NCBI RefSeq assembly: GCF_024979315.1
Contig: NZ_JANLCK010000002.1
Span: 1 to 64,000 of the forward strand
DNA length: 64,000 bases
Direction: 5' to 3'
Source: Herbiconiux oxytropis
GTDB lineage: Bacteria > Actinomycetota > Actinomycetes > Actinomycetales > Microbacteriaceae
Part shown: positions 6,280-44,415 of the stretch, one piece after another
Position numbering within the stretch: position 1 is the stretch's first letter
Layout of the letters: every line of letters starts with the position of its first letter
The notes under the pieces: generated by a model
Told to the model about the DNA's origin: nothing
Databases searched by the model: none
Seen by the model: the letters and a program-made list of their open reading frames with translations, nothing else
Translations under genes and position numbers: made by a program

Positions 6280-6296
6280 TCTGCTCCTCGGGCTGC

Positions 6297-6313
6297 GGGC
6301 CCGAAGCGGGCCC
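6297..6313 (-). terminator. GC hairpin after the maleylacetate reductase gene
   Basis: GGGCCCG-AAG-CGGGCCC is a perfect 7-bp stem with a 3-base loop in the 94 bp between two co-directional genes. It probably attenuates or ends the catabolic operon. There is no U-tract. Confidence 0.5.
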
Positions 6314-6373
6314 TCTGCCAGCATGGGCTGTTTCGCCCGGCACCGCTCGCCCTGTGCGGGGCCTGCCGACACC

Positions 6374-8088: not shown

Positions 8089-8122
8089 CCGATCATCCCT
8101 TCCTCGTCACCCGACCCGCACG

Positions 8123-8170
8123 GTGCTCGTCGTGCTCAGTGCTCGTCGTGCTCAGTGCTCGTCGTGCTCA
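8123..8170. repeat. Three perfect 16-bp tandem repeats over a stop codon
   Basis: GTGCTCGTCGTGCTCA occurs three times without change at 8123-8138, 8139-8154 and 8155-8170. The last copy contains the TGA stop of the dioxygenase gene on the minus strand. Because 16 is not a multiple of 3, each added copy shifts frame and adds spacer only. Confidence 0.95.
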
Positions 8171-9127: not shown

Positions 9128-9169
9128 TGTTATCTCCTTGTTGGTCGTCTACTGCGGATGCCCGATGCT

Positions 9170-13278: not shown

Positions 13279-13991
13279 GATCGCATCCCCTCGGTCTCGT
13301 CGCTGCCCGTCGCATCCCGCAGCCACAGCCCCGTGAGCTCCTGCAGCTCATCGAGGGTGGTGTCGCCGAAGAGCTCGCTCACGGCGAACCCGTCGGCGAT
13401 CACATCGAACACCGCGCGGTCGGTGTAGACCCGGCTGACGCACGCGACGCCGGTCAGCGGATAGGTGCACGCTGCCACGAGCTTGGACGCACCGTCCCGA
13501 GTGAGCAGATCCGTCATCACCCACACGCTCTTCGCGCCGATCGCGAGGTCCATCGCGCCGCCGACCGCGGGGATCGCCCCGGGTGCACCGGTGTGCCAGT
13601 TCGCGAGGTCGCCGCGCTCGGAGACCTGGAAGGCGCCGAGCACGCAGATGTCGAGGTGTCCGCCGCGCATCATGCCGAACGAATCGGCGTGGTGGAAGTA
13701 CGAGGCGCCCGGCAGCTCGGTCACGGGCTGCTTGCCCGCGTTCATGAGGTCGGGGTCGACGAGGCCGGGCTCGGGAGCCGGCCCCATGCCGAGCATCCCG
13801 TTCTCGGTGTGCAGGATGACCTCGAGCCCCGCGGGCAGCGCGTCGGCGATGAGAGTCGGTGCTCCGATGCCGAGGTTCACGATCGCGCCCTCGGGGATGT
13901 CCTGCGCGATCCGGGCCGCAAGGGCGCGACGGTCGAGGGCGCCGCGGTTCGGGGCGCTGGGGTTCGGGGCGCTGGGGTCGAGGCCGCTCAT
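13275..13991 (-). CDS. pcaJ: 3-oxoadipate CoA-transferase subunit B
   Basis: A 238-residue beta subunit of class I CoA-transferase, which forms 3-oxoadipyl-CoA from succinyl-CoA. It has the catalytic Glu in LHTENGMLGMGP (about residue 65), NLGIGAPTLIAD, MNAGKQPVTELPG, and GAMDLAIGAKSVWV. The N-terminus carries a doubled PSAPN unit from a 15-bp tandem DNA repeat and seems dispensable. The ATG at 13991 overlaps the alpha subunit stop by ATGA and the gene overlaps thiolase downstream by ATGA. The scoB-type 3-oxoacid activity cannot be excluded, but neighbours fit 3-oxoadipate. Confidence 0.9.
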   Translation of the reverse strand: MSGLDPSAPNPSAPNRGALDRRALAARIAQDIPEGAIVNLGIGAPTLIADALPAGLEVILHTENGMLGMGPAPEPGLVDPDLMNAGKQPVTELPGASYFHHADSFGMMRGGHLDICVLGAFQVSERGDLANWHTGAPGAIPAVGGAMDLAIGAKSVWVMTDLLTRDGASKLVAACTYPLTGVACVSRVYTDRAVFDVIADGFAVSELFGDTTLDELQELTGLWLRDATGSDETEGMRS

Positions 13992-14695
13992 GCGGGTGCT
14001 CCCACGAACTCGCCGGCGCGGAGCCAGGGCCGCTCCCCCACCTCGACGACGCGGTCGACGAAGATGCCCGGAGTCACGACGGCCTCGGGGTCGAGGGCGC
14101 CGAGTTCCACGACCTCGTCGACCTGCACGACGGTGGTGCGCGCCGCCGCGGCCATCAGCGGGCCGAAGTTGCGCGCGGTGCGGCGGTAGACGAGGTTGCC
14201 CCACCGGTCGGCCCGATAGGCCGAGATGAGCGCGACGTCGGCCCGCAGCGGGTACTCGAGGATGTAGTCGCGCCCGTCGATGGTGCGGGCCTCCTTGCCT
14301 TCGGACACGGTGGTGCCGACGCCGGTGGGCGTGAAGAACGCGCCGATCCCGGCTCCGGCGGCACGGATGCGCTCGGCGAGGTTCCCCTGCGGCACGAGTT
14401 CGAGCTCCACCTCGCCGGCGCGGTAGGCGGCGTCGAAGGCGTGCGAATCGGCCTGGCGGGGGAAGGAGCACACGACGCGGCGCACCCGGCCGGCGGTGAT
14501 GAGGGCCGCGATGCCGGTGTCGCCGTTGCCGGCGTTGTTGCTCACGATCGTGAGATCCGAGGCGCCCTGGGCGATGAGGGCGTCGATGAGCTCCACAGGC
14601 TGGCCGGCGGCGCCGAAGCCGCCGATCATGACGGTCGCGCCGTCGCCCACGTCGGCGATCGCCTCGCTCGCATCGGCTCTCAGCTTTGAGATCAC
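13988..14695 (-). CDS. pcaI: 3-oxoadipate CoA-transferase subunit A
   Basis: A 235-residue alpha subunit paired with the next gene. It has the CoA-binding glycine loop VMIGGFGAAGQPVELIDAL, LTIVSNNAGNGDTGIAALI, ELVPQGNLAERIRAAGAG, PTGVGTTVSEGKE, and YRRTARNFGPLMA. GTG at 14695 was preferred because GAGG lies 5 bases before it; the in-frame GTG at 14701 abuts the same GAGG with no spacing. It is the first gene of the operon and overlaps subunit B by ATGA. Upstream inverted repeats are likely operators for the IclR regulator of this operon. Confidence 0.88.
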   Translation of the reverse strand: MISKLRADASEAIADVGDGATVMIGGFGAAGQPVELIDALIAQGASDLTIVSNNAGNGDTGIAALITAGRVRRVVCSFPRQADSHAFDAAYRAGEVELELVPQGNLAERIRAAGAGIGAFFTPTGVGTTVSEGKEARTIDGRDYILEYPLRADVALISAYRADRWGNLVYRRTARNFGPLMAAAARTTVVQVDEVVELGALDPEAVVTPGIFVDRVVEVGERPWLRAGEFVGAPA

Positions 14696-14701
14696 AGCCA
14701 C

Positions 14702-16359: not shown

Positions 16360-17031
16360 TCAGGGCGAATCCGACGCCGGCTCCGGCGCCCGGTACTCGC
16401 ACAGCAGATACCGCACCGCGGTTTCGCACAGCTCGTGCACGAACTGCGCATCGGTCTGGCCGTGCTCGGAGACGAAGTCTGATCCGTAGGCGATGTGGAT
16501 CGCGATCGACGAGAACACGGTGCGGAAGCATGCATCCACGACGAAGCGGGCGTCGGCGTGCGGGATCTCGGTCGACCGGCGCTCCAGCAAGCGCGCGAAC
16601 CGGTGGCCGAGCTCTCTCGTCCACTCCGATCCGTGCTGACGCACCGCCTCGTGAGAGCCCGAGAGCAGCACGATCGACCGCACGAATCCCGCCCGCTCCA
16701 AGAAGATGTCGGCCACCACGGTGACGGCCCGGCGCACCAGCTCGTCGATGGGCAGCGCGTCGAGGGTCATGGAATCGTCGAGTGCATCCTGCCCCACGGC
16801 CATCTCGGCCAGGGCGTTCTCGTAGACGGCGAGGAAGAGCGCGTCCTTGCCGGAGACCCGGGCGTAGATGGCGTCCACCGAGACACTCGCCTCGCGGCAC
16901 ACTGCACCGATGGTGAAGCCCTTATATCCGGATGTCTCCAGGATGCGTTCGCCGGCCTCGAGCACGCGGTTCCACGAGTCCCGCGACCGTGCCTGCTGGG
17001 GCGTGTTGAGCAGAACGGTCTTCGGTTCCAT
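16360..17031 (-). CDS. TetR-family transcriptional regulator
   Basis: A 223-residue repressor. The helix-turn-helix covers FTIGAVCREASVSVDAIYAR at about residues 40-60, where family members usually end in TIYR/AIYH. The C-terminal domain is helical and ends LLCEYRAPEPASDSP. The first residues include QQARSRDSWNRVLEAG, a common TetR N-terminus. It is the last gene of the ferredoxin/P450 set, 9 bp after the HtaA-domain gene, and probably controls that operon. Its stop is followed in frame by the hydrolase relic. The effector is unknown. Confidence 0.88.
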   Translation of the reverse strand: MEPKTVLLNTPQQARSRDSWNRVLEAGERILETSGYKGFTIGAVCREASVSVDAIYARVSGKDALFLAVYENALAEMAVGQDALDDSMTLDALPIDELVRRAVTVVADIFLERAGFVRSIVLLSGSHEAVRQHGSEWTRELGHRFARLLERRSTEIPHADARFVVDACFRTVFSSIAIHIAYGSDFVSEHGQTDAQFVHELCETAVRYLLCEYRAPEPASDSP

Positions 17032-17040
17032 AGCCCCAGA

Positions 17041-17580
17041 CTAGGCGCTGCCCGGGGCGGCCGAGCCGAGCGGATGCGGAACCGGACGCGGATGCTGCAG
17101 CTCCGCCGGCGCCGACCAGCTCACGTCGTCCACCCGCTGGGTCGGGTAGTACTGCAGCATCCCGAGCGTCTCGGCCCCCGCCTGCGTCAACCGCGCCTCG
17201 ACAGGGCTCCAGACCCCCCGCTCGCTCGGGCTCGGCGGCGGCGTGGCCGCCAGAACGGCGATCGGCCGTCGCTCCATCAGCTCTGAAGAGGGGTCGACCG
17301 TCTCCGCCGTGAGCAGGACGGTGTCGCGAGCGCACTCCACCCGGAGTTCCGCGAGACGGATGCGCAGCAGACCGCCATGGCCCTCGATCAGGATCGTGCC
17401 GTCGAATGCCACGGTGCGCCCGGCATCCGTCACCTGCTGATCCCGGAAGGGGAGACGGAACACTCCGTCGGCGAACGACCCTCCCGCGCCCGCCTGGACC
17501 CGCCCGTCACCGAGCTGCAGCACGTACCGGATCAGGCTCTCCTTGACGCCCCAGACCAGCTCGAACTGCACAGCCGTCAT
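17041..17580 (-). CDS. Soluble single HtaA-domain protein
   Basis: A 179-residue protein made of one HtaA-like domain. Family signs are LVWGVKESLIRYVLQLGDG at residues 8-26, the GTILIEGHGGLLRIRLAELR core, and LTQAGAETLGMLQYYPTQ near the end. HtaA domains are known as haem-binding surface modules of actinobacterial iron uptake, normally with signal peptides and membrane anchors. Here there is neither, so the protein should be cytoplasmic. It overlaps the P450 gene by ATGA, which suggests a stoichiometric role with that haem enzyme, such as haem delivery or substrate binding. That role is inference. Confidence 0.7.
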   Translation of the reverse strand: MTAVQFELVWGVKESLIRYVLQLGDGRVQAGAGGSFADGVFRLPFRDQQVTDAGRTVAFDGTILIEGHGGLLRIRLAELRVECARDTVLLTAETVDPSSELMERRPIAVLAATPPPSPSERGVWSPVEARLTQAGAETLGMLQYYPTQRVDDVSWSAPAELQHPRPVPHPLGSAAPGSA

Positions 17581-18758
17581 GCCTTTCGGATGGTCACCGG
17601 CAGGGTCTCGAGCCCCCGCACGAAGTTGTTCAGGTGCCGCTTCGGCGTGCCCGCAGGCTCGAAGCGCTCGATTCGATCGGCCATCGCCTCGAACAGGGCG
17701 TGTGCCTCCATGCGGGCGAAGCCCTGGCCGGCGCAGCCGTGCAGGCCGTAGCCGAAGGCCAACTGGTCGGAGGCGTCGCGGGTGACGTCGAACTCGTCGG
17801 CGCTGTCGCCGAAGTGGCGCTCGTCGCGGTTCGCCGATGCATACAGAACCATCAGGCGATCGCCCTCGCCGATGGGCGTTCCATCGATGGCCAGATCGCG
17901 CGTGGCCACCCGGGTGAACACGTGCACGGGGCTCTCGAACCGCAGCACCTCGTTGAAGGCGGCGGGGATCAGCGACCGGTCGGCGCGCACGGCGTCCCAC
18001 TGCTCCGGATGGGTGGAGAACAGCCACACCGCCGAACCGATCGCGTTGATCGTGGTGTCCATGGCCGCTGCCGTGTAGGCCACGAGAAGCTGCGGCGCCG
18101 AGGCGTGGTCGATCACGCCCCGGTCGGCGGCGTCGTAGACGGCTCGGCCCATGCTGCCCTCCGTGAGATCCGAGCCCTGGATGCCGTACACCCAGCCGTA
18201 CAATTCCTGCAGGAGTGGCATGGCGGAGGTCATCCGCTCGTTCACCGGACCCAACGCGTTGAACACGCCATCGCCCCAGGGGAGCAGGCGAGGCCGCACG
18301 TCCTGAGGGAACCCGATCAGGTCGGCGACGATGGAGGGCGGGAACACGCGGGCCAGCTGCCCGATGGCGTCGAAGCCGCCGTCCTCCACGAGGGAGTCCA
18401 CGAGCCGATGCGCCTGCTCGCTGATGCTCCCCGAGAGGGATTTGATCGCCCGCGGGCTGAGGCTCTCGGCCAGCACTCCGCGGAGCGTGTCATGGAGGGG
18501 CGGATCGGAGGCGAGGATCGTGCCCTGCGTCGCGGTGTTCACCTCGTCGTTCATGCCCACGCCCTGGGCTGCACTGAAGCGCTCCCAGTCGCCGAGAACC
18601 TCCCGCACCCCGTCGTAGCGGGTGACGGCCCAGCAGCCGACGCGGTCCAACCAGACGGCGGGTGCCTCATCACGGAGGGCGCGATAGGCCGGATACGGGT
18701 CGGTGAGGTTCTCGTCCGAGAACAGGTCGAGGTCGGAAGGGGTGGTGATGGTTGTCAT
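17577..18758 (-). CDS. Cytochrome P450
   Basis: A 393-residue soluble bacterial P450 that needs external ferredoxin. The I-helix oxygen motif is AAMDTT (231-236), the ExxR motif lies in FNEVLRFESPVHVFTR, and the haem loop is FGYGLHGCAGQG with the thiolate Cys at about 342. Ferredoxin reductase and a 3Fe-4S ferredoxin gene lie immediately upstream, giving a complete class I electron chain. AGGAG lies before the ATG and overlaps the reductase stop. The CYP family cannot be named; the neighbours suggest hydroxylation or O-demethylation of an aromatic or alicyclic compound. Confidence 0.95.
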   Translation of the reverse strand: MTTITTPSDLDLFSDENLTDPYPAYRALRDEAPAVWLDRVGCWAVTRYDGVREVLGDWERFSAAQGVGMNDEVNTATQGTILASDPPLHDTLRGVLAESLSPRAIKSLSGSISEQAHRLVDSLVEDGGFDAIGQLARVFPPSIVADLIGFPQDVRPRLLPWGDGVFNALGPVNERMTSAMPLLQELYGWVYGIQGSDLTEGSMGRAVYDAADRGVIDHASAPQLLVAYTAAAMDTTINAIGSAVWLFSTHPEQWDAVRADRSLIPAAFNEVLRFESPVHVFTRVATRDLAIDGTPIGEGDRLMVLYASANRDERHFGDSADEFDVTRDASDQLAFGYGLHGCAGQGFARMEAHALFEAMADRIERFEPAGTPKRHLNNFVRGLETLPVTIRKA

Positions 18759-18766
18759 GATGACTC

Positions 18767-19939
18767 CTAGATGATGTTCGCGGTGGGGTTTCCCGCAGCG
18801 AGGTGCAGCTTCGAGATGGCGATGCGCCGGTTCACGGCGAGGGCGCCGTACGGCACGCCGTCACGCCGCCACTGCACCAGCGCGTCGAGGTCGTCGAGGG
18901 ATCCGGCCAGAACGTCGGGCTCGCCCAGGAACGGAGTGTGGCCCCCCATCTTCAGCGCGAGTGAGAACTGGTCCGACCAGAAGTAGGGGCGGGCGAGATA
19001 CTCGGGTGCCTCATCGCCGTTCAGCAGGGCGGCGACGGCGGTGCGCGCCTGGTCGAGCGCGTTCGACCAGTGCGGATTGCGGCGCGGCGGGCTGCCGAAG
19101 GCCGCCACGTCACCCGCGGCGACGATGCGATCGGTGACCCGGCAACGGGAGTCGACCACCACTCCCGGCAGGCACACCAGTCCCGAGCCGGCCAGCCACT
19201 CGATGTTCGGGCGGTCGCCGACGGCAGACACGACGAGGTCGCCCTCGTACACCGTCGACCCCAGCCGGGCGGCCAGCCGGCCCCCGCGCTCCACCAGGGT
19301 CACCCCCGAGGGGTCGGTGACCAGCTCGACCCCGTGGGCGCGCGCCTCCCGCTCCACCAGGGCCGACACGAACGGCCCGCACTGGGACAGCAGCGGCGCC
19401 TCGTTCGACAGGACGGTGACCGCGATCCCCATCGATGCCGCAACGGAGGCCAGCTCCATGCCGAGCACTCCGGCCCCGACGATCACGATCGCGGAGGCCG
19501 TGCGCAGCTCATCGCGCAGACGGCGGGCATCATCCAGAGTGCGGAGCACCCGCTCCTCGAGCCCGGAGGTGTTACCGCCCAGGTCAGCCACTGTCCGGGC
19601 TCTCGCGCCTGTGGCGATCACCAGGCCGTCGAAGGGGAGCGGCTCGCCGCTGGCCAGTCCGACCGTGCTCCCCGCGACGTCGAGACGCACCGCGGCATCA
19701 CCTCGCACGCGCCGGATGCGGGCGCTCTCGGCAAGAGGGATCGAAGCGGATTCCGGCTCGGCGGCCCCGGAGAGAACGGCCTTCGACAGCGGAGGCTTCG
19801 CGTAGGGCGCCGACACCTCAGCCTCGACCAGCACGATCGGGCCGGTGTGGCCGCGCGCCGTCAGCTCCTCCACTGCGGTGATGCCCGCAATGGAGGCACC
19901 GACCACCACCACGGTTCCGTCCGGTGGGAGCACGGTCAC
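18767..19939 (-). CDS. FAD-dependent ferredoxin reductase
   Basis: A 390-residue NAD(P)H:ferredoxin reductase. An N-terminal FAD loop (VVVVGASIAGITAVEEL), the segment AKPPLSKAVL and the ATGARAR motif are followed by the NAD(P)H loop IVIVGAGVLGMELASV and the FAD-contacting VAAGDVAAF. A reductase C-terminal domain with PYFWSDQFSLALKMGG follows. It starts at GTG 19939, overlapping the ferredoxin stop (GTGA). It passes electrons from NAD(P)H to the adjacent ferredoxin and so to the P450. Confidence 0.92.
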   Translation of the reverse strand: MTVLPPDGTVVVVGASIAGITAVEELTARGHTGPIVLVEAEVSAPYAKPPLSKAVLSGAAEPESASIPLAESARIRRVRGDAAVRLDVAGSTVGLASGEPLPFDGLVIATGARARTVADLGGNTSGLEERVLRTLDDARRLRDELRTASAIVIVGAGVLGMELASVAASMGIAVTVLSNEAPLLSQCGPFVSALVEREARAHGVELVTDPSGVTLVERGGRLAARLGSTVYEGDLVVSAVGDRPNIEWLAGSGLVCLPGVVVDSRCRVTDRIVAAGDVAAFGSPPRRNPHWSNALDQARTAVAALLNGDEAPEYLARPYFWSDQFSLALKMGGHTPFLGEPDVLAGSLDDLDALVQWRRDGVPYGALAVNRRIAISKLHLAAGNPTANII

Positions 19940-20127
19940 TCCTCGAGCCTCAGTGCGGCCACCGGGCAGCTCCGGACGGCGAGGCGAGCGCGGTCCTGCT
20001 GGTCGTCGCCGACCTCCTCGGAGAGGATCTCCAGTTCGTCGTCGCTGTCGAGTCGGAGGAGCGTCGGGGCCTTCTCCTCGCAGAAGCCGTACCCCTCGCA
20101 CCGGGTTCGATCCACACTGATCTTCAC
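19936..20127 (-). CDS. 3Fe-4S ferredoxin
   Basis: A 63-residue ferredoxin. The cluster ligands are Cys10, Cys16 (RCEGYGFCEE) and Cys54 (RSCPVAAL). The second position of the usual CxxC is not Cys, which predicts a 3Fe-4S cluster as in many P450-linked actinobacterial ferredoxins. It begins at GTG with AGGA 6 bases upstream and is the first gene of the P450 operon. It overlaps the reductase gene by GTGA. Confidence 0.93.
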   Translation of the reverse strand: MKISVDRTRCEGYGFCEEKAPTLLRLDSDDELEILSEEVGDDQQDRARLAVRSCPVAALRLEE

Positions 20128-20265
20128 AATCGTCCTGCCTGTCGCTACGTCGTCGTACCTTGCAGGGAGCGTGTCAGACCATCCCTGTCGAAGTCAAGCA
20201 GAATCAGAATTACTATTTTGTTTAAAATGTTTGCACTGGTTTCAGATGTCAGCTAGCTTTCCCCT
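20128..20265. promoter_or_regulatory. AT-rich divergent promoter region of the second catabolic island
   Basis: This 138-bp gap between the divergent ferredoxin and FCD-regulator genes is clearly AT-richer than its surroundings. It holds the inverted repeat ATTTT-GTTT-AAAAT at 20215-20228 and the palindrome AGCTAGCT at 20251-20258. I could not pick one convincing -35/-10 pair. It probably drives both arms and carries sites for the FCD and/or TetR regulators. Confidence 0.5.
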
Positions 20266-20268
20266 GTG

Positions 20269-20973
20269 ATGAAGCGCAGCGTGCAGAGAAGCACGACCAC
20301 AGGAACCCGAGCGGATGAGCTCTACGAACTGCTCCGCTCCGAGATCTTCCTCGGCCGGCTCGAACCTGGAAAGCGGTTGAAGTTCCCGGAGCTCTCCGAG
20401 GCCTACGGAACGAGCGTCGGTCCGGTGCGGGAGGCCCTGACGAAGCTGACCGCCGAACGACTGGTGACCCTTCAGCCCCACCTCGGGTATGCGGTGGCCT
20501 CGCTCTCCGCCGGTGAACTCACGGAGCTGACCACCGCGCGGGTCGACATCGAGGGGCTCGCGTTCGGTCACGCCATCCAGGAGGGCGGCGACGGCTGGGA
20601 GTCCGAGGTCGTGGCCGCGCACCACCTGCTGAACCTTCGCGATCGGGACATCGCAGCGAAGGGCCGAGGCGACGACTGGTACCTCGCCCACGAGGCCTTT
20701 CACGCCGCCCTGCTCGCCGGATGCGGCAACCACCGACTGATCGAGATCGCCCGGGGCCTGCGGGCCGAGACCGAGCTGTACCGCCGGTGGGCCGCACCGC
20801 TCCTGGCCGAGAACGATCGCGACCCGGTGGCCGAGCACAAGGCGCTCGCCGACGCGGCGCTCGATCGCGACCTCGACCGCGGTGTGCGGCTCCTGCGGGA
20901 GCACATCGCCTTCACCACGCAGATGCTGCTGAGCGAGCTGCTGCCGCTCGACGCCGATCTGACCGAGCACTGA
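20269..20973 (+). CDS. GntR-family (FCD subfamily) transcriptional regulator
   Basis: A 234-residue regulator. The N-terminal winged helix covers LYELLRSEIFLGRLEPGKRL, FPELSEAYGTSVGPVREAL and RLVTLQPHLGYAVA. The C-terminal FCD ligand domain has metal-site histidines in AHEAFHAALLAG and EHKALADAAL/REHIAF. ATG 20269 was chosen; a GTG directly before it (20266) is equally possible and neither has a clear ribosome site, so the mRNA may be leaderless. FCD proteins usually sense acids or sugar acids, fitting a catabolic switch for the genes that follow. Confidence 0.9.
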   Translation: MKRSVQRSTTTGTRADELYELLRSEIFLGRLEPGKRLKFPELSEAYGTSVGPVREALTKLTAERLVTLQPHLGYAVASLSAGELTELTTARVDIEGLAFGHAIQEGGDGWESEVVAAHHLLNLRDRDIAAKGRGDDWYLAHEAFHAALLAGCGNHRLIEIARGLRAETELYRRWAAPLLAENDRDPVAEHKALADAALDRDLDRGVRLLREHIAFTTQMLLSELLPLDADLTEH

Positions 20974-21001
20974 CTTCGATGGATCTGAGAAGGAGAAGAC
21001 C

Positions 21002-21850
21002 ATGAAACTGGCAACCATACGAACGACTGAAGGACTGCGCGCGGCGCGCGTGGACGGTGACGAGCTCGCGCTCCTGCCCTTCACCGATGTCGGAGCGCTG
21101 ATCGCATCGGGTGAGGACTGGGCCGAGCGAGCGGCCTCGGCAGGCGACGGCGCCCGCATCCCGCTCGCCGAAGCCGACTTCGCGCCCCTCACTCCGGCAC
21201 CCGAGAAGGTGTTCTGCGTCGGGCTCAACTACGCCTCGCACGCCGCGGAGGCCCACCTCGACATCCCGCAGCACCCGACCCTGTTCGCCAAGTTCGCACG
21301 CAGCCTGATCGGTGCGAACGACGACCTCGAGATCCCCTCGGCGTCGGACAAGGTCGACTGGGAGATCGAGCTGGGCGTCGTCATCGGCAAGCCGGCCCGC
21401 CACGTCAGCGAAGCCGACGCCCTCGACCACGTCGCCGGTTACACCATCGTCAACGACGTCTCGATGCGCGACTGGCAGCTGCGCACGTCGCAGTTCCTCG
21501 CCGGCAAGACCTTCGAGCACTCCACCCCGGTGGGCCCGTTCCTCGTGACGCCCGACGAGATCGACCACGCACGTTCGCTGCGGATGGAGCTCTCTGTCGA
21601 CGGGGAGGTGAAGCAGTCCTCCGCCACCGACGACCTCGTCTTCACCGTGCCGCAGATCATCTCCTACATCAGCACCATCATCACGCTCGTGCCCGGCGAT
21701 CTGATCGCCACCGGCACGCCCGCAGGCGTCGGGCACGTCGCCGACCCGCCGGCGTACCTCACCCCGGGCAGCAGCGTGACCTGCTCCATCGAGGGCCTCG
21801 GAACGCAGACCACCCGCTGCGTCGCCGCCCGCGAGGCGGTGGTCGCCTGA
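21002..21850 (+). CDS. Fumarylacetoacetate hydrolase-family protein (first copy)
   Basis: A 282-residue FAH-domain enzyme. The catalytic core shows KVFCVGLNYASHAAEAH, the metal-binding Glu/Asp pair in VDWEIELGVVIGKPAR, GYTIVNDVSMRDWQ, KTFEHSTPVGPF, and GDLIATGTPAGVG. Such enzymes hydrolyse or decarboxylate dicarbonyl ring-cleavage products with Mg or Mn. GAGAAGGAGAAG lies upstream of the ATG. Its stop overlaps the dioxygenase start by one base (TGATG), so it probably acts on that enzyme's product. The exact substrate is unknown. Confidence 0.88.
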   Translation: MKLATIRTTEGLRAARVDGDELALLPFTDVGALIASGEDWAERAASAGDGARIPLAEADFAPLTPAPEKVFCVGLNYASHAAEAHLDIPQHPTLFAKFARSLIGANDDLEIPSASDKVDWEIELGVVIGKPARHVSEADALDHVAGYTIVNDVSMRDWQLRTSQFLAGKTFEHSTPVGPFLVTPDEIDHARSLRMELSVDGEVKQSSATDDLVFTVPQIISYISTIITLVPGDLIATGTPAGVGHVADPPAYLTPGSSVTCSIEGLGTQTTRCVAAREAVVA

Positions 21851-22743
21851 TGCTCGCACCCGTCATCAGCGAGATCGGCCACGTGTCGATCCGGGTGCGC
21901 GACCTCGCCGCTGCGGAGGAGTTCGCCACGGTCATGCTCGGCCTGCACGCCAGCCGGCGCGAGGAGGGCCAGGTCTGGTTCACCCTCGGAACGGCGCATC
22001 ACAGCATCCACTACATCCGGGCGGATGAGGATGCGCTCGATCACGTCGGCCTCGTCGCATCCGATGAGGAGGGACTCGCCGAAGCCCGCCGACGGGTGGA
22101 GGCGGCCGGTCTCCAGATCGTGAGCGATGTGCCGCTCGGTGTCGGCATCGAGGATGGCTTCGCCTTCGTCGACGAGTTCGGCTTCGTCTTCCAGCTCTAC
22201 AGCCGGATGACGCAGGTACCGGCCCCGGCGCCGACCGGGGCACTGAGGCCGACCCGACTGGGGCACTTCAACTTCTTCGTGCCCGACCCCCGCCGGATGG
22301 AGCGCATGCTCACCGAGCTGTTCGACTTCCGGGTGTCCGACCGCGTCGACGGCATGGAGGGCGGGGTGTTCCTGCGGTGCAACGTCGACCACCACGGGAT
22401 CGGTGTCTTCCCGGGCGCCGGGCGCATCCACCACGTGGCCTGGGAGTATCCGACCATCCTCGAGATCGGCGCCATCGCCGACCTCGTCGACGCCCGCGGC
22501 GGGTCGGTTCTGTGGGGCCCGCTGCGGCACGGCATGGGACGGAACATCGCCACCTACCTGCAGGAGCCGAGCGGCCTGGTGCAGGAGTTCTACTGCGACA
22601 TGGAGCGCATCTACGACGATGCCCGGCACGTGCCGGGCGAGTGGTCGTTCGACGGGCACAAGTGGGTGAGCCTCTGGGGTCCGCACCTCACCCCGGAGGG
22701 CTTCTCCGAGCTCGGGCTCCCACCCGGTGTGAGGAGGGCCTGA
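21850..22743 (+). CDS. VOC-family extradiol dioxygenase
   Basis: A 297-residue two-domain extradiol-type enzyme. Domain 1 begins IGHVSIRVRDLAAAEEF and domain 2 begins LGHFNFFVPDPRRME. Likely Fe(II) ligands are His in GHFNFF, His in IHHVAWEY and Glu in LVQEFYCDM, as in catechol 2,3-dioxygenases. It is translationally coupled to the FAH gene on its left and lies 1 bp from the SMP-30 gene. Its substrate should be the diphenol made by the FAD monooxygenase downstream. That order is inferred. Confidence 0.87.
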   Translation: MLAPVISEIGHVSIRVRDLAAAEEFATVMLGLHASRREEGQVWFTLGTAHHSIHYIRADEDALDHVGLVASDEEGLAEARRRVEAAGLQIVSDVPLGVGIEDGFAFVDEFGFVFQLYSRMTQVPAPAPTGALRPTRLGHFNFFVPDPRRMERMLTELFDFRVSDRVDGMEGGVFLRCNVDHHGIGVFPGAGRIHHVAWEYPTILEIGAIADLVDARGGSVLWGPLRHGMGRNIATYLQEPSGLVQEFYCDMERIYDDARHVPGEWSFDGHKWVSLWGPHLTPEGFSELGLPPGVRRA

Positions 22744-22744
22744 G

Positions 22745-23620
22745 ATGGCCGCGACCACAGCGGGCCTCCGTCTGCTGGCAGACGACCTCGTCTGGGCGGA
22801 GTCACCCTGTTGGGACGACGGCCGGCTCTGGGTCTCCGACACGCAGGGTTCGCGGCTGTTCCTTCTCACCGGTGACGACACCGTCATCCACACCCTCGAC
22901 AGCCCGATCAACGGCACCGGCATCCTGCCCTCGGGCGAGCTCGTCGGGGCACGGATGACCGGGGCGCGCCTCGACAGCTTCGACGGGGAGCGGTGGTCGC
23001 TGCACGCCGAGCTGAGCGGCTGGGTCACGGGCACGCTCGGCGACCTGATCGTGCTGCCGGACGGCACCGTGCTCGTCGACGAGGTGCGCGGGCCGGATCG
23101 GCCGGGCCGGCTGCTCCGCATCGCTCCTGACGGCGCCACACCGATCGTGTCGGTGGCGGCCGACGACCTGGTGTTCCCGAACGGGCTCGTCGTCGTGGAC
23201 GAGGGGCGCACCCTCGTCGTGGCAGAGACCTACGCCCACCGGCTCACCGCCTTCACCCTCGGGCCGAACGGCGAGCTCACCGACCGGCGCCTCTGGTTCG
23301 ACCTGCGGGCCGAGCTGGGAGATGACTTCCGACCCGACGGCGCCTGCGTGGCGGCCGACGGATCGGTCTGGGTGGCCACCACCAGCGGCAATGCCTTCAT
23401 CCGCGTCGCGGACGGCGCTCTCGTCGACCGCATCGACGTCGACGGCTTCGCGATCGCGTGCTGCCTGGGTGCGGGCGACGATCTCATCCTCACCAGCGCC
23501 ACCAGCCGGGATCCGGAGCTCTCCGTCACCGATGCCGCTCACCGCCAGCGCACCCGTGCGCGGGTGAGCGCTCTGCACCATCCGACAACAGTCAATCCGA
23601 CAACAGACAACCCGCAGTAA
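22745..23620 (+). CDS. SMP-30/gluconolactonase-family lactonase
   Basis: A 291-residue six-bladed propeller protein of the SMP-30/gluconolactonase/LRE family, which are metal-dependent lactonases. Metal-ligand regions are the Glu in WAESPCWDDGRLWVSDT, Asn in FPNGLVVVDEGRTLVVAE and Asp in FRPDGACVAADGSVWVA. The C-terminus ends in a doubled PTT(V/D)NP unit from a short DNA repeat. It sits between the dioxygenase and monooxygenase genes, suggesting that a lactone forms in the pathway. The substrate is unknown. Confidence 0.87.
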   Translation: MAATTAGLRLLADDLVWAESPCWDDGRLWVSDTQGSRLFLLTGDDTVIHTLDSPINGTGILPSGELVGARMTGARLDSFDGERWSLHAELSGWVTGTLGDLIVLPDGTVLVDEVRGPDRPGRLLRIAPDGATPIVSVAADDLVFPNGLVVVDEGRTLVVAETYAHRLTAFTLGPNGELTDRRLWFDLRAELGDDFRPDGACVAADGSVWVATTSGNAFIRVADGALVDRIDVDGFAIACCLGAGDDLILTSATSRDPELSVTDAAHRQRTRARVSALHHPTTVNPTTDNPQ

Positions 23621-23639
23621 CGAACGAAAGGTGATCGAC

Positions 23640-25166
23640 ATGAGCGAACGCGCCGACGTCAGAGTGGACGTGGCCGTCATCGGTTGTGGCACGACGGGAC
23701 TGGCCCTGGCCCGCCTCCTCGAACTCGAGGGGCTCACCGTGGCCCTGGTCGACCGGGGGCGGCTGCCGATTCCGTTCCCGCGCGCCACGCATCTCGACGA
23801 CGAGACGATGCGTGCCTTCCAGACCCTCGGCCTGCACGAGCTCGAGGAGACATTCTCCCTCGTGGGCACCTACCGGCACTACGACGCGAAGTGGCGCACG
23901 GTGGTGGCGATGGACATGAACCGGGGCATCACCGAGCAGGGCTGGCAGTCGGACTACATGTTCCACCAGCCCGACTTCGAGGCCGTGCTGCGGGGCCACG
24001 CCGAGAACTACGCGGGGGCGAGCACCTGGTTCGGCTGGGACCTCACCGCGCTGGAGGACTCCGGTGACGAGGTGGTGCTGAGCGTGCGCGAGATCGCGAC
24101 CGACCAGGTGTCGAACATCACCGCGTCCTACGTGGTGGGCGCCGACGGCGCCAATTCCCGCGTCCGGAAGTTCATCGGAGCCACGCAGACCGATCACCAC
24201 GCCACCCACCGGTCGCTGATCACCGACATCATGCCGCTGGTTGAGCTCGGAGAGGGAAAGGGGTTGCCGGGCCGGGACTCCTGGATCCACGCCGTCGCCC
24301 CGAATCCGCTCACCGCGCTGCCCACCGCGGCGCCGCGCCTCCGGTTCGAGCTCATGCTGCGCCCCGACGACGACTCGAAGGAGTTCGAGCGGGCGGAGAA
24401 GGCCTACGAGATGATCGCCCCGTGGCTTCAGCCGCACGAGTACCGCCTGCTCCGGAGCGACGTCTACGAGTGGCGGTCGCTCACCGCCGACCAGTGGCGG
24501 GTGGGCCGCGTGCTCCTCGCCGGGGATGCCGCGCACACCATGCCCCCGCATCTCGGTCAGGGGATGTGCTCCGGAATCCGGGACGCCACCAACCTGGGCT
24601 GGAAGCTCGGCCGGGTGGTGCGGGGAGAGTCGGCGCCCGCCCTGCTCGACACCTATCAGAGCGAGCGCCGTCCGCACGTCGTGACCTTCACCACCATCGC
24701 CGCCGAGATGGCGAACCGGATCGAGATCCTCGATGCGCCGGAGGAGGAGCCCGAGGTGTTCGAAGCTCCCGTGCTCCGGCCTCCACTCGGCCCGGGTGTG
24801 CGCGACATCGAGGAGGGACGGGCCGGAACGCTCAGCGCCCAGCCGCGCACGGGAGAGGGCGAACTGCTCGACGACCTCGTGGGCTACAGGTTCTCCCTCA
24901 TCGCCACGCCCGAGGCCACGGCTCGCACGAGCCCGGCCGCCCTCGAGCTGCTGGCGGCGCTCGACGTGGCGACGGTCGAGGCGGTTCCTGGGCCGGTGGG
25001 AGAGTGGCTGAACGAACTCGGTGCTGCCGCCGCGATCGTGCGCCCGGATCGCTACCTCTTCGGTGCGGTCGATGAGCCGGAGGGTGTGGAGGCGCTGATC
25101 GCGCGGCTCCGCGCGGCCCTCGAGCCCCTCCCCGTTCCCGCTGAGGCAGCCGGAGTGCCGCGGTGA
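23640..25166 (+). CDS. FAD-dependent aromatic monooxygenase (MhpA-like)
   Basis: A 508-residue class A flavoprotein hydroxylase. It has the FAD loop VAVIGCGTTGLALARLLE, the DG motif VVGADGANSRVRK, and the GD motif VLLAGDAAHTMPPHLGQGMC with the GIRDATNLGWKL helix. The C-terminal thioredoxin-like extension (from about 410) is as in 3-(3-hydroxyphenyl)propionate and phenol hydroxylases. ATG 23640 was chosen because AAAGG precedes it; GTG at 23631 is in frame but lacks a site. It should add an ortho-hydroxyl to a phenolic acid before extradiol cleavage. The substrate is unknown. Confidence 0.9.
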   Translation: MSERADVRVDVAVIGCGTTGLALARLLELEGLTVALVDRGRLPIPFPRATHLDDETMRAFQTLGLHELEETFSLVGTYRHYDAKWRTVVAMDMNRGITEQGWQSDYMFHQPDFEAVLRGHAENYAGASTWFGWDLTALEDSGDEVVLSVREIATDQVSNITASYVVGADGANSRVRKFIGATQTDHHATHRSLITDIMPLVELGEGKGLPGRDSWIHAVAPNPLTALPTAAPRLRFELMLRPDDDSKEFERAEKAYEMIAPWLQPHEYRLLRSDVYEWRSLTADQWRVGRVLLAGDAAHTMPPHLGQGMCSGIRDATNLGWKLGRVVRGESAPALLDTYQSERRPHVVTFTTIAAEMANRIEILDAPEEEPEVFEAPVLRPPLGPGVRDIEEGRAGTLSAQPRTGEGELLDDLVGYRFSLIATPEATARTSPAALELLAALDVATVEAVPGPVGEWLNELGAAAAIVRPDRYLFGAVDEPEGVEALIARLRAALEPLPVPAEAAGVPR

Positions 25167-26179
25167 GACTGGTCACCTTCGCGAGGCGGATGCTCGACGG
25201 AGCGGAGCTGCAGGCCGTCGTGCTGCGGGCCGGCATTCTGCACGGCGACCGTGTCGTCGACATCGACCTCGCCCTGGCCGCCGCCGGGCTCCCGGCGCGC
25301 GGCGGCCGGGAGCCCGGCGGGCCATCCGAATTGATCCGGATCATCGGCGGCGGGGAGCGCGCCCTCGACGAGGTGCAAGATGTCTGCGATGCCGCGATGA
25401 CCGCCGGGCGGGAGGGCCCGGTCACGCACCCCGCCACCGAGGTGCAGCTCGTCGCACCGCTGCCGCGCCCGAACAGCCTGCGGGACTTCCTCGCGATCGA
25501 GGAGCACATGCGCGGCTCTGTGGCCGCTGGAGTCATCCAGGAGGTGCCCGACGAGTGGTATCGCATCCCGGCGCACTACAAGGGGAACGTCGACGAGATC
25601 TACGGGCCGGACGACACCATCCCGTGGCCCGCCTTCACTGACAAGCTCGACTACGAACTGGAGATCTGCGCCGTGATCGGAGCACCGGGACGGAGGATCG
25701 CGGCCAATGACGCGAGCGAGCACATCGTCGGCTACACGCTCTACAACGACTGGAGCGCCCGAGACATCCAGGCGCGGGAGATGAGCATCGGCATCGGGCC
25801 GGGCATCTGCAAGGACTTCGGCAGCTCGATCGGGCCCTGCATCGCCACGCCAGACGAGTTCGACTGGCGCACCGCCGCTCTGGAGGCGCGAGTGGACGGC
25901 GAGGTGTGGTCGGCGGGAACGGTGGGCACGATGCAGTTCTCGTTCGAGGAGATCGTGGAGTGGACCAGCCAGGAGCAGACGCTCCGGCCCGGAGACCTGC
26001 TGGGCAGCGGCACCATCGCGAGGGGCTGCGGCGTCGAGATCGGCCGCTGGATCAACGAGGGCAGCGTGGTCGAGCTCGAGGCGGAGGGCATCGGCATCCT
26101 GCGCAACCAGGTGGGACGAAAGGGCGAGGGACCGTCGCGCGCCGTCGAGCTCGACGCCACCTTCGCGAGGGCACGATGA
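25163..26179 (+). CDS. Fumarylacetoacetate hydrolase-family protein (second copy)
   Basis: A 338-residue FAH-domain enzyme, distinct from the first copy and with a longer N-terminal domain. It has APLPRPNSLRDFLAIEEH, the acidic metal-site pair in LDYELEICAVIG, GYTLYNDWSARDIQ, KDFGSSIGPCIATPDE and LRPGDLLGSGTIARG. It starts at GTG overlapping the monooxygenase stop (GTGA) and ends overlapping the CoA-transferase start (ATGA). Two FAH enzymes in one operon suggest sequential hydrolysis or a hydrolase plus a hydratase/decarboxylase step. Confidence 0.87.
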   Translation: MRLVTFARRMLDGAELQAVVLRAGILHGDRVVDIDLALAAAGLPARGGREPGGPSELIRIIGGGERALDEVQDVCDAAMTAGREGPVTHPATEVQLVAPLPRPNSLRDFLAIEEHMRGSVAAGVIQEVPDEWYRIPAHYKGNVDEIYGPDDTIPWPAFTDKLDYELEICAVIGAPGRRIAANDASEHIVGYTLYNDWSARDIQAREMSIGIGPGICKDFGSSIGPCIATPDEFDWRTAALEARVDGEVWSAGTVGTMQFSFEEIVEWTSQEQTLRPGDLLGSGTIARGCGVEIGRWINEGSVVELEAEGIGILRNQVGRKGEGPSRAVELDATFARAR

Positions 26180-26940
26180 GCGGCACGAGGTCGAGGATCG
26201 GATCGGGCTCGCCCGAGTCGGTGCGCGAGCTGGTGGCCGGCGTCGTGTCCGATGGGATGACCATCGCGGTCGGCGGATTCGGGGTGAGCGGGGTGCCGGT
26301 CGGGCTGATCGAGGCCGTCAGGGACTCCGCCGTGCGCAACCTGACGATCGTGTCGAACAACATGGGGATCGACGGCTCGGGCCTAGGGCTGCTGCTCGAG
26401 AACGACCAGGTCGCGAAGGTGGTGGCCTCCTACATCGGAGAGAACAAGCTCTTCGCCCGCCGCTTCCTGGCCGGCGAGGTGGAGGTGGAGTTCGTGCCGC
26501 AGGGCACGCTGGCCGAACGGCTGCGCGCCGGTGGGGCGGGCATCCCGGCGTTCTACACGAAGACGGGAGTGGGCACCGAAGTGGCCGCGGGCAAGCCGGT
26601 CGAGATCTTCGATGGCCAGTCGTTCATCCGGGAACGGGCCATCGTCGCCGACCTCTCCCTGGTGCGGGCGCATCTCGCCGACGGCGCGGGCAACCTGGTC
26701 TACCGCTACACCGCCCGCAACTTCAACCCGGTCGTCGCGACGGCTGGGCGCGTCACGATCGCCGAGGTCGAGCGCATCGTCGAGGTGGGCGAGATAGACC
26801 CGGATCACGTGGTCACCCCCGGGGTATACGTGCAGCGGATCGTGCTGGCGCCCGACCGGGTGAAGCACATCGAGCAGCGAACGGTGCGTCAGCGGCCTCT
26901 CGAGGCTGACGCTGCCGGACGCGTGATGCAGGAGGCCTGA
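26176..26940 (+). CDS. 3-oxoacid CoA-transferase subunit A
   Basis: A 254-residue alpha subunit of a class I CoA-transferase. It has [92 protein letters not shown] and [13 protein letters not shown]. The ATG at 26176 overlaps the FAH stop. The C-terminal tail is about 20 residues longer than the pcaI product at 13988-14695. With the next gene it activates a beta-keto acid. The SCOT-like YIGENK segment favours a 3-oxoacid rather than strictly 3-oxoadipate. Confidence 0.9.
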
Positions 26941-26942
26941 CC

Positions 26943-27587
26943 GTGTGGACCAGAACCGAGATGGCCACGATCGCAGCCGAGGAGCTGCGGGACGGCGACT
27001 ACGTGAACCTCGGGATCGGCATCCCTACCCTCATCGCGAACACCCTGCCCGAGGGGGTCACGGTGACCCTGCAGAGCGAGAACGGGCTGCTCGGCATGGG
27101 GCCTTTCCCCTACGAGGGCGACGAGGATGCCGACCTGATCAATGCGGGCAAGCAGACGGTGACCGCATTACCTGGCGCGAGCATCTTCGGCTCGCCGGAA
27201 TCGTTCGCCATGATCCGGGGCGGGCACATCGACATCGCGTTCCTCGGGGCCATGCAGGTCTCCTCCACCGGCGACCTGGCGAACTGGGCGATCCCCGGCG
27301 CCCTCGTCAAGGGCATGGGCGGGGCGATGGACCTCGCCGCCGGCACCCGGAGGATCGTGGTGCTGACCGAACACACCACGAAGGCGGGTGAGCCGAAGAT
27401 CGTCGAGCACTGCACCCTTCCCCTCACCGGGGTGGGGGTGGTGCAGCGCATCGTCACCAACCTGGCCGACTTCGACGTCACCGCGACCGGCCTCGTGCTG
27501 CGCCGGGTCGCCCCCGGTGTGTCGGTGGAACAGCTGCGCGAACTCACCGCCGCACCGTTCGAACCGGGATCGGGGTTCCGCGCATGA
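26943..27587 (+). CDS. 3-oxoacid CoA-transferase subunit B
   Basis: A 214-residue beta subunit. The catalytic Glu is in [66 protein letters not shown] and [15 protein letters not shown] are also seen. It starts at GTG 2 bp after subunit A and overlaps the thiolase gene by ATGA. With subunit A it forms the CoA thioester that the thiolase splits. It is a second, separately acquired copy of the function at 13275-14695. Confidence 0.9.
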
Positions 27588-28771
27588 CCGTCATGAGCCG
27601 CTTCGGCACGGACGTGCTGCTCACGGGATGGGGGCACTCGCCGTTCGGCAAGCTCCCCGAGGAGACCCTGGAGTCGTTGATCGTGGGTGTGGCCCGCGAG
27701 GCGATCGCCGGCGCGGGCCTCGAGGCATCCGACATCGATGAGATCTACCTCGGGCAGTTCAACTCGGGCCTGCTGCCGCTGGGGTTCGCCTCGTCGCTGG
27801 CGCTCCAGGTGTCCGACGATCTCGCGAACGTGCCCGCCACCCGGGTGGAGAACGCGTGTGCCTCCGGATCCGCCGCCGTGCATCAGGGGGTCAAGTCGCT
27901 TCTGGCGGGCACTGCGACGACCGTGCTCGTGATCGGCGCCGAGAAGATGACCCACGCGCCCGCATCCGTAGTCGGCTCGGCCCTGCTCGGCGCCGACTAC
28001 GAGCTGGCGGGCCACGAGTCGGCCACCGGCTTCGCCGGCCTCTTCGCGGGCACGGCGCTGGCCTACGCTGACCGGTACGGCGATGTCGTCGGCGCGCTCG
28101 GGCAGATCGCGTCGAAGAACCACCACAACGGCACGGCGAATCCGTATGCCCAGCTGCACAAGGAGCTGAGCGTCGAGTTCTGCCAGACGGAATCGGCGCA
28201 GAACCCGATGGTGGCTTATCCGCTCAAGCGCACCGACTGCTCGCCCATCTCGGACGGGGCCGCTGCCGTCGTGCTCTCGACCCGGCCGGTGGGCGGCGCG
28301 CTGACACCGCCGGTGCGACTCCGCGCGTTCGCACAGGCGAACGACTTCCTGCCCGCCGCCAAGCGCGACCCCACCGCCTTCGCCGGAAGCGCCGCCGCCT
28401 GGCACCGGGCCCTCGCCATGGCCGGCATCACGCTCGACGACCTCGACCTGGTGGAGCTGCACGACTGCTTCACCATAGCTGAGCTGATCATGTACGAGGT
28501 GATGGGCCTCACCCCCGCGGGGCAGGGCTCGAGGGCACTCGACGAGGGCTGGGTGCACCGCGACGGCCTGCTCCCGGTCAACCTCTCGGGCGGCCTCAAG
28601 TCGAAGGGCCATCCGGTGGGTGCCACCGGGGTCTCGCAGCACGTGCTCGCCGCCATGCAGCTCACCGGCACCGCCGGTGCGATGCAGCTCCCGAGCGCTC
28701 GGATGGCCGCCGTGCACAACATGGGCGGCTTGGCGGTGGCGAATTACGTGAGTGTCCTCGAGGGACTGTGA
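27584..28771 (+). CDS. Thiolase (SCP-x-like acetyl-CoA acyltransferase)
   Basis: A 395-residue thiolase-fold enzyme. The nucleophilic Cys is in [15 protein letters not shown] (about residue 90), [16 protein letters not shown] replaces the NEAFA motif of classic thiolases, and the catalytic His is in [10 protein letters not shown]. This HDCF pattern marks the SCP2/SCP-x thiolase branch. The start may be ATG 27584 (overlapping subunit B) or ATG 27593. It is the last gene of the plus-strand arm and should release acetyl-CoA or propionyl-CoA from the pathway's CoA ester. Confidence 0.9.
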
Positions 28772-28922: not shown

Positions 28923-28958
28923 AGCCCGGTGCAGAAGCGGATCACGGGGTGGGACGTG

Positions 28959-29048
28959 CGGAGACGGTGGGATTTGAACCCACGGTACCCTTGACGGGTA
29001 CTCCACCTTAGCAGGGTGGTGCACTAGGCCGAACTATGCGACGTCTCC
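28959..29048 (-). tRNA. tRNA-Ser(GCT)
   Basis: Ninety bases on the minus strand. The acceptor stem GGAGACG pairs with CGTCTCC, followed by discriminator G and no encoded CCA. The anticodon arm is CCACC-CTGCTAA-GGTGG (anticodon GCT). A long class II variable arm (TACCCGTCAAGGGTA) and the T-loop GTTCAAAT are present. It reads AGC/AGT serine codons. Its 3' end faces the P450/FAH island. Confidence 0.97.
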
Positions 29049-42089: not shown

Positions 42090-42095
42090 TCCGCG

Positions 42096-43278: not shown

Positions 43279-43285
43279 CCTGGGG

Positions 43286-43561: not shown

Positions 43562-43567
43562 GGGGGT

Positions 43568-43798: not shown

Positions 43799-43812
43799 TG
43801 TCAGTTCCGTGA

Positions 43813-44040: not shown

Positions 44041-44096
44041 GCCAAGACAGTAGCGGGTCCCTCTGACACGTCGATATTGTGAGCGCGGGGGTAATC

Positions 44097-44372: not shown

Positions 44373-44415
44373 GTCAAACTCCTTGCCATAGAAAAACTGG
44401 CGAGGCGGGGATGAC

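Follow-up and report, generated by a model that had tools for sequence, protein, structure and literature searches.

A mosaic gene cluster of Herbiconiux oxytropis with a possible role in the degradation of resorcinol-type aromatic compounds

Introduction

A flavin-dependent monooxygenase (FMO), an extradiol dioxygenase and a protein of the fumarylacetoacetate hydrolase (FAH, or FAA) family have been described together in the hcdABC operon of Pseudomonas mandelii 7HK4, which is concerned with 7-hydroxycoumarin and 3-(2,4-dihydroxyphenyl)propionate. According to the passages of that report considered here, the FMO yields a 2,3,5-trihydroxyphenyl compound, the extradiol enzyme yields 2,4-dihydroxy-6-oxo-dienedioate, and cells that have the FAA-family protein HcdC as well consume the latter (PMC6222606). 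We analysed a locus at positions 16360-28771 of a 64,000-nucleotide stretch of Herbiconiux oxytropis DNA (contig NZ_JANLCK010000002.1, positions 1 to 64,000; the window), in which the same three gene families are co-encoded: a group A flavin adenine dinucleotide (FAD) hydroxylase, a type I (VOC) extradiol dioxygenase and an FAA-family protein. The likeness is one of gene families. The hcdABC operon consists of three genes and, as presented in those passages, is without the cytochrome P450 (P450), SMP-30 protein, second FAH protein, coenzyme A (CoA)-transferase and thiolase of the window.

We tentatively propose that the locus encodes one catabolic pathway, built from three modules, for a resorcinol-type ring or its methyl ether; all of the reactions are ones that we infer from the predicted gene products. 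In broader terms, the gene set most likely serves to strip, open and digest an aromatic ring rich in oxygen, by a general style of degradation that is already known.

Results

The evidence for one pathway comes from the conservation of the locus. A protein scan of genome contigs with the VOC dioxygenase, which recovers close relatives only, gave five loci, in Amycolatopsis pithecellobii (L014), Pseudonocardia sulfidoxydans (L015), P. kujensis (L016), P. endophytica (L017) and a metagenome-assembled genome (MAG; L018, 53% identity). Among 62 genomes of the genus of L015, the four VOC matches were those of the L015, L016 and L017 genomes and of genome G586 (stretch L038). L014 to L017 and L038 were compared as the five Pseudonocardiales loci, and the MAG, with only the VOC gene and a weak FMO match, was left aside. 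Nine genes (GntR, ferredoxin, ferredoxin reductase, P450, FAH1, VOC, SMP30, FMO and FAH2) were found together in all five loci; because they recur in this way, their grouping exceeds chance and we take them to be parts of one pathway, and the single catabolic pathway claimed by the first-pass annotation is supported by this conserved linkage. In L014, L015 and L038 the order FAH1-VOC-SMP30-FMO-FAH2 is that of the window, with all nine genes co-directional. The set is still complete in L016 and L017, where the P450 arm and the GntR gene run in the opposite direction and the SMP30-FMO-FAH2 trio, joined by an AMP-ligase gene, is of another lineage (40-47% identity to the window, versus 64-79%). 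The GntR regulator is 72-78% identical in the five loci.

The VOC dioxygenase is rare. At E <= 1e-60 it was matched in 1 of 394 genomes of the class and 2 of 396 of the phylum, with the window genome among the matches in each and at most six candidates per genome scored, among the matches listed. At the same threshold, 2 of the 19 genomes in the genus of L014 had a match, and at E <= 1e-40 there were 5 among 199 relatives, one of them the window genome and the other four at 39-41%. A sixth Pseudonocardiales match, in genome G1008, was 43% identical. The small actinobacterial genome G776, probably the same MAG as L018, carries three VOC relatives of 42-55% (L035-L037).

The phylogenetic trees point to a mosaic. 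In a tree of FAH1 and VOC the window pairs with Pseudonocardia G586 (support 97/96), and a tree of the five core genes, with the second-lineage copies from L016 and L017 among its sequences, joins the same two at 100/100. In the P450 tree (21 rows) the five Pseudonocardiales sequences form a clade (100/99) with the window outside it, and a constraint uniting the window P450 with that of G586 was rejected by the approximately unbiased (AU) test (p-AU 0.00012). Constraints placing it with the Pseudonocardiales (p-AU 0.156) or with Microbacteriaceae-type P450s (0.09) were not rejected, and its position among the other clades of this tree is weakly supported (80/82, 89/88). A six-row tree of the P450 module did not place the window, and GntR alone gave no resolved tree. 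The P450, reductase and ferredoxin of the window share 43-56% identity with their counterparts in the five loci; the counterparts share 64-82% with one another. P450 matches at E <= 1e-90 were present in 8 of 249 family genomes, the window genome counted. Our reading is that three modules, each with its own history, have come together here, judged by the tree test for the P450 and by presence and absence for the CoA module.

Within the ring-cleavage core, the closest NCBIfam models of the VOC protein are catechol 2,3-dioxygenase and HpaD, both under cut-off; it matches PDB entry 3b59 (6e-30), and its His/His/Glu metal-ligand pattern is intact. The best model for FAH1 and FAH2 alike is a 2,4-diketo acid hydrolase (2,4-didehydro-3-deoxy-L-rhamnonate hydrolase for FAH1), far under its cut-off in both cases. 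The best structural match of FAH1 is 6j57 (3e-61), titled a predicted hydratase, followed by HpaG (1gtt, 6e-56). FAH1 carries the motif NYxxHxxE, which we take to be an acylpyruvase pattern. In the alignment, FAH2 has DF...H and NDWSARDIQ in common with the annotated FahA of the Rhodococcus plasmids pN1 and pNit, to which it is 27-28% identical (1e-16); FAH1 had no match there at 1e-6. The two are 37% identical to each other over 163 amino acids. FAH1 therefore looks acylpyruvase-like, and FAH2 fumarylacetoacetase-like, by motif and similarity. The FAA_hydrolase model scores over cut-off at 10 places in this genome, so that membership of the family is in itself not special. No alpha/beta hydrolase, dehydrogenase or aldolase of the classical meta-cleavage type was found among the 14 proteins scanned, and a hydratase role for the FAA proteins could still be envisaged.

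The solved structures closest to the P450 are PbdA (PDB 9g9q, 1.3e-86) and CYP199A4 (about 1e-77). At the CYP199A4 anchor positions R92/S95/R243/S244 (numbering as we assume it), the window P450 reads A/G/V/A in the 21-row alignment, and none of the 19 non-reference rows retains the reference residue at any of the four. Three of these positions are PbdA Arg84, Ser87 and Ser237, which hold the benzoate carboxylate and belong to a motif that the authors call conserved in CYP199A, and the fourth (R243) is PbdA Arg236, which is described as helping to order a water at the carboxylate site (PMC11530827). PbdA and CYP199A4 branch separately from the window P450 at 100/100, in a midpoint-rooted tree with these two references only. 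The window P450 thus has neither the carboxylate anchors nor the tree grouping of CYP199A para-methoxybenzoate demethylases. Because the anchors are absent, a neutral substrate is favoured, and a neutral ether or phenol seems likelier than a methoxybenzoate. Para-methoxybenzoate demethylation was considered for this P450 and is disfavoured on the same ground. Benzoate-type methoxy acids become less likely as substrates of the locus, and nothing in our analysis points to cresols or alicyclic ketones.

The surroundings of related P450 genes were also compared. On plasmid pR1CP1 of Rhodococcus opacus 1CP, a P450 of 48.5% identity lies with a ferredoxin and a reductase near genes for a nitrophenol hydroxylase, a ring dioxygenase and a maleylacetate reductase. 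This setting is phenol- rather than benzoate-like and suggests, by analogy, phenol ethers as substrates. Homologues of the HtaA-domain protein adjoin P450-ferredoxin-reductase sets in two Microbacteriaceae stretches by tblastn (L057, 36%, 6867-7343; L076, 31%, 10166-10711), and a third such neighbourhood (L058) was recognised by eye. The HtaA protein travels with these modules in Microbacteriaceae, and might serve as a ligand carrier or a haem partner. In the five Pseudonocardiales loci neither the HtaA protein nor, at 1e-6, the TetR regulator had a match. Sampled P450 relatives also recur with two phosphotriesterase-family genes, an FAD monooxygenase, an alpha/beta hydrolase and a metallo-beta-lactamase-fold hydrolase (annotated in Caballeronia L046; by eye in Microbacteriaceae L077 and L078), which is another undefined pathway.

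Both CoA-transferase subunits score over the NCBIfam subfamily cut-offs (Table 1), placing them in the 3-oxoacid CoA-transferase (PcaIJ/ScoAB) family, and subunit A is 47% identical to the PcaI of the same window. The start of the subunit A gene overlaps the FAH2 stop by 4 bases with no regulator gene between them, and its expression with the core is therefore probable. Matches to the CoA-transferase A/B-thiolase set were found on pN1 and pNit (72-75%) and on an Arthrobacter plasmid (68-69%); the thiolase itself is 73% identical to the one beside CoA-transferase A/B on pN1. Thiolase matches at E <= 1e-120 were present in 8 of 249 family genomes, the window genome counted. Four Microbacteriaceae thiolase stretches were viewed, and two (L074, L079) have adjacent CoA-transferase A/B genes (61-77%) while two (L073, L080) do not. 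In L055, L074 and L079 the trio adjoins an IclR-like gene (by eye), away from core genes. A Streptomyces plasmid with GntR, FAH1, FMO and SMP30 relatives (38-46%) encodes a 3-keto-5-aminohexanoate cleavage-type gene. The association of FMO/VOC/FAH clusters with genes for CoA or 3-oxo acid steps is no more than suggestive, since catabolic islands of this type often contain CoA ligases. On the Agrobacterium vitis plasmid pAt (L023, 19097-20418), relatives of VOC, FMO and FAH1 have CoA-transferase A/B matches nearby, the A match being in two pieces in different frames.

By a reading-frame check, the locus comprises 14 genes with no internal stops (Table 1). Sequence motifs were sought in ten of the 14 proteins (ferredoxin, P450, FAH1, VOC, SMP-30, FMO, FAH2, both CoA-transferase subunits and thiolase), and the expected ones were present in all ten. 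The three-cysteine ferredoxin is presumably of the 3Fe-4S type. The plus-strand genes follow one another with gaps of -4 to +28 bases, the genes of the minus-strand arm, read outward from 20127, overlap or lie no more than 9 bases apart, and a 138-base spacer separates the two arms. The run from GntR to thiolase is packed like a single operon, and the P450 set is a divergent arm. Promoter and terminator scans at the locus gave no signal above chance, and structure predictions from five-row alignments (mean predicted local distance difference test score 54.0 for the FMO and 41.2 for FAH2) were too low for fold searches. The P450, VOC dioxygenase, two FAH proteins, SMP-30 protein, CoA-transferase and thiolase named in the first-pass annotation, together with the FMO, are all in place with family matches. 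That list is correct as given, and its title leaves out the ferredoxin, ferredoxin reductase, HtaA protein, TetR and GntR genes inside the same interval.

Table 1. Genes of the locus at 16360-28771, with family matches and gene boundaries
Gene product	Position	Strand	Matches and remarks
TetR-family regulator	16360..17031	-	PF17918 and PF00440; last gene of the P450 arm; 9-base gap to the HtaA gene
HtaA-domain protein, 179 amino acids	17041..17580	-	PF04213 (3e-14); 4-base overlap with the P450 gene
Cytochrome P450	17577..18758	-	PF00067 (4e-20); related to PbdA/CYP199A4
FAD-dependent ferredoxin reductase	18767..19939	-	PF07992 (2e-47), PF14759 (scanned from 19942); GTG start set by eye
Small ferredoxin, 63 amino acids	19936..20127	-	PF13459 (6e-13); three Cys (10, 16, 54)
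GntR/FCD regulator	20266..20973	+	PF00392 and PF07729; opens the plus-strand run
FAH1, acylpyruvase-like FAA hydrolase (putative)	21002..21850	+	PF01557 (3e-70)
VOC (type I) extradiol dioxygenase	21850..22743	+	PF00903 (6e-18); TIGR03211 (5e-32), under cut-off
SMP-30/gluconolactonase-type lactonase	22745..23620	+	PF08450 (1e-28)
Group A FAD aromatic hydroxylase (FMO), MhpA-like subfamily	23631..25166	+	PF01494 (2e-62); NF004829, 423 bits (cut-off 390); FAD motifs
FAH2, fumarylacetoacetase-like FAA hydrolase (putative)	25163..26179	+	PF01557 (2e-52)
3-Oxoacid CoA-transferase subunit A	26176..26940	+	TIGR02429, 253 bits (cut-off 128.5)
3-Oxoacid CoA-transferase subunit B	26943..27587	+	TIGR02428, 311 bits (cut-off 243.6)
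Thiolase, SCP2-like (PRK07516 family)	27584..28771	+	NF005704, 607 bits (cut-off 412)

Elsewhere in the window, a second aromatic cluster lies at 5464-14701 on the minus strand. In it, a gene for a PcaR-family regulator accompanies those for two alpha/beta hydrolases, a VOC protein (8168-9127; MhqO-like by eye), an iron-containing dehydrogenase that by eye is maleylacetate reductase-like, a class III CoA-transferase, a citryl-CoA lyase-like protein, a PcaF-like thiolase and PcaIJ-family subunits. Directly past the thiolase gene of the locus there is a tRNA-Ser gene (28958-29048). The region 42000-45557 resembles an integrated element: its G+C is lowered, at 60-63%, and a frame that by eye is integrase-like (44517-45431) adjoins a second tRNA-Ser gene (45470-45557).

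Discussion

In the pathway that we propose, the P450 with its own ferredoxin and reductase (module 1) would oxidise a neutral aromatic compound, most likely by O-demethylation that frees a phenol. In module 2, the FMO would hydroxylate the phenol to a catechol bearing a third oxygen in a 1,3 relation, the VOC dioxygenase would open the ring next to the diol (meta-cleavage), the SMP-30 protein would open a lactone or pyrone formed by the poly-oxo acids, and FAH1 and FAH2 would split the beta-diketone chain hydrolytically to pyruvate and a 3-oxo acid. The CoA-transferase of module 3 would then activate the 3-oxo acid for the thiolase to give acetyl-CoA and an acyl-CoA. We likewise infer the substrate class, the presence of a third oxygen and the formation of a 3-oxo acid. 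A beta-diketone ring-cleavage product can account for the presence in one operon of a fumarylacetoacetase-like enzyme together with an acylpyruvase, a lactonase and a CoA-transferase/thiolase pair for 3-oxo acids. It would be formed if a further oxygen stands in the 1,3 position of the catechol that is cleaved, and the hcdABC steps described above are a precedent for such a product. With an acylpyruvate cut by FAH1, simple chemistry would then lead to pyruvate and a 3-oxo acid. Fumarylacetoacetase releases acetoacetate, and a 3-oxo acid product agrees with the CoA sets near fahA on pN1 and pNit as well as with the cleavage-type gene of the Streptomyces relative. The earlier proposal had already put the FMO, extradiol, FAH and CoA steps in a sensible order, the reactions being predicted there too, and it was right that the 14 proteins include no alpha/beta hydrolase or aldolase.

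Several points weigh against the proposed pathway. The five Pseudonocardiales loci gave no CoA-transferase match and only distant thiolase matches (L038, 35%; L015, 25%). Instead, AMP-ligase genes without clear specificity lie within a few kb of the core there, and the last step could therefore have been added locally. The closest thiolase among the 249 family genomes (L073, 75%) has no adjacent CoA-transferase match, and L019 and L021 show no CoA or 3-oxo acid gene in the annotated stretch, where the plasmid gene tables are incomplete. A single FAH protein would suffice for a 2,4,6-trioxo acid, so that the simplest scheme does not need the second. The loss of anchors is common to all 19 sampled P450s outside CYP199A and therefore indicates no one substrate. 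Lys stands at the R92 position in one of these sequences, and Ser at R243 in two. For hcdABC, HcdB is reported as inactive on 1,2,4-benzenetriol, and that study did not identify the products of HcdC (PMC6222606).

The ring itself could be a simpler one, although we consider this somewhat unlikely: in ordinary catechol meta-cleavage the FMO would give a simple catechol for the VOC dioxygenase, the FAH proteins would act as isomerase/decarboxylase or hydratase like HpaG and MhpD of the same family, and the CoA-transferase and thiolase would take a 3-oxo acid such as 3-oxoadipate. This would fit the MhpA-like FMO, which is over the cut-off of its broad subfamily model, the VOC protein with its catechol 2,3-dioxygenase and HpaD models, and FAH1, which matches HpaG strongly (1gtt, and the HpaG-C model at 1e-51), with the VOC and HpaG-C models all under curated cut-offs, and whose best structural match is titled a hydratase; the HpaG match counts against our proposal as well. 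However, no aldolase or semialdehyde dehydrogenase was found among the 14 proteins, FAH2 has fumarylacetoacetase motifs, and the top model of both FAH proteins, though under cut-off, is the diketo acid hydrolase. A special case of our proposal, catabolism of a flavonoid or isoflavone A-ring, would have the P450 demethylate a methoxyflavonoid, the FMO hydroxylate C8, the VOC protein open the A-ring, the SMP-30 protein open the pyranone and the FAH proteins trim the chain. The bulky neutral substrates would suit a P450 without carboxylate anchors, and the names A. pithecellobii and P. endophytica, as we understand them, point to plants. Known pathways of this kind are described as using an FMO and a VOC protein and giving a 2-hydroxy-4H-pyran-4-one intermediate, but in the same account homologues of IfcA are reported from Proteobacteria only and IfcD is a cupin (PMC11069340), whereas none of the 14 proteins matches a Pfam cupin model; we regard this case as quite improbable.

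The outer modules could also stand apart from the core. The P450 arm is transcribed toward the second aromatic cluster (5.4-14.7 kb) and might feed it hydroquinone-type compounds; its history differs from that of the core by the AU test, the related P450 of R. opacus has nitrophenol and maleylacetate reductase genes in its neighbourhood, and sets of P450, ferredoxin, reductase and HtaA genes without the core exist in Microbacteriaceae. Against this, a homologous P450-ferredoxin-reductase set accompanies the core in every Pseudonocardiales locus examined, and we give a separate arm little probability. It is improbable, if slightly less so, that the CoA-transferase and thiolase are a general acetoacetate-use module at the operon end by happenstance. 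The trios beside IclR-like genes and the five core relatives with no CoA-transferase would agree with this, but the overlap with FAH2 and the lack of an intervening regulator speak for expression with the core. Returning to the three-module pathway, its most novel form would be a so far undescribed actinobacterial route for a plant aromatic of methoxylated resorcinol type, such as the A-ring of a methoxyflavonoid or a 3,5-dimethoxy-alkylbenzene, with a demethylating P450 outside CYP199A, an SMP-30 pyrone lactonase, an unlike FAH pair cutting a poly-oxo acid twice and interchangeable 3-oxo acid modules; in this full form we think it unlikely, though not strongly so.

Three further described systems were compared and set aside. 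The estrogen aed cluster is described as having a P450 hydroxylase and an extradiol dioxygenase with AedG/AedH/AedJ and two beta-oxidation sets (PMC12507874); it has the P450, a dioxygenase and one thiolase in common with our locus, where no acyl-CoA dehydrogenase, enoyl-CoA hydratase or CoA-ligase was found among the 14 proteins. Riboflavin/lumichrome catabolism ends in pyruvate and acetoacetate, but the pyrimidine-ring hydrolases, thiamin-dependent decarboxylase, xanthine-oxidase type enzyme and Rieske system given for it (PMC12746152) are absent here. In the 4-hydroxypyridine kpi cluster, the ring is reported to be opened by an amidohydrolase-type dioxygenase and not by a VOC protein (PMC7356986).

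The analysis defines a nine-gene catabolic set that is common to some Pseudonocardiales and this Herbiconiux-like strain. It predicts a P450 branch near CYP199A that acts on neutral aryl ethers, a split of tasks between an acylpyruvase-like and a fumarylacetoacetase-like FAH protein of the same operon, and a CoA-transferase/thiolase module that can be swapped in. This has a bearing on the breakdown of lignin and plant phenolics and on the assembly of pathways through module exchange. Among the papers listed in searches of the open-licence PMC literature, none showed the complete gene set or its conservation in Pseudonocardiales.

Compared part by part, the locus resembles several known systems. 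As in the ifc isoflavone genes of Variovorax V35 and the fde naringenin genes of Herbaspirillum, FMO hydroxylation beside a phenol and a pyranone intermediate can be proposed (PMC11069340, PMC11303751, PMC8552027), and ifc is also reported to cleave a resorcinol-type ring by a VOC (glyoxalase-type) protein. Unlike the window, ifc uses the cupins IfcD1/IfcD2 on the pyranone, and the passages on it mention no P450 or SMP-30 protein (PMC11069340). Likened by their descriptions, the flavonoid A-ring pathways are the nearest plant-linked analogue. The window P450 has a separate ferredoxin and reductase, unlike PbdA, which is described with the reductase PbdB (PMC11530827). The ipp genes for 2-isopropylphenol of Rhodococcus D-6 likewise have an extradiol dioxygenase, an FAH-family gene and then an annotated acetoacetyl-CoA synthetase gene in a row, but differ in their two-component group D monooxygenase and hydroquinone cleavage, and the account shows no role for the FAH protein or the synthetase (PMC12442392). 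In the fahA lower-pathway regions of pN1 and pNit, the CoA-transferase A/B-thiolase set sits a few kb from the fumarylacetoacetase gene; a cupin-domain gene (which we read as a homogentisate-type dioxygenase) and a full-length FahA are found there in place of VOC and FAH2. The replacement of an alpha/beta hydrolase by an FAH protein, suggested for the locus in the first-pass annotation, is not new, being already known from hcdABC (PMC6222606), and what is unusual about the locus is the patchwork of its parts.

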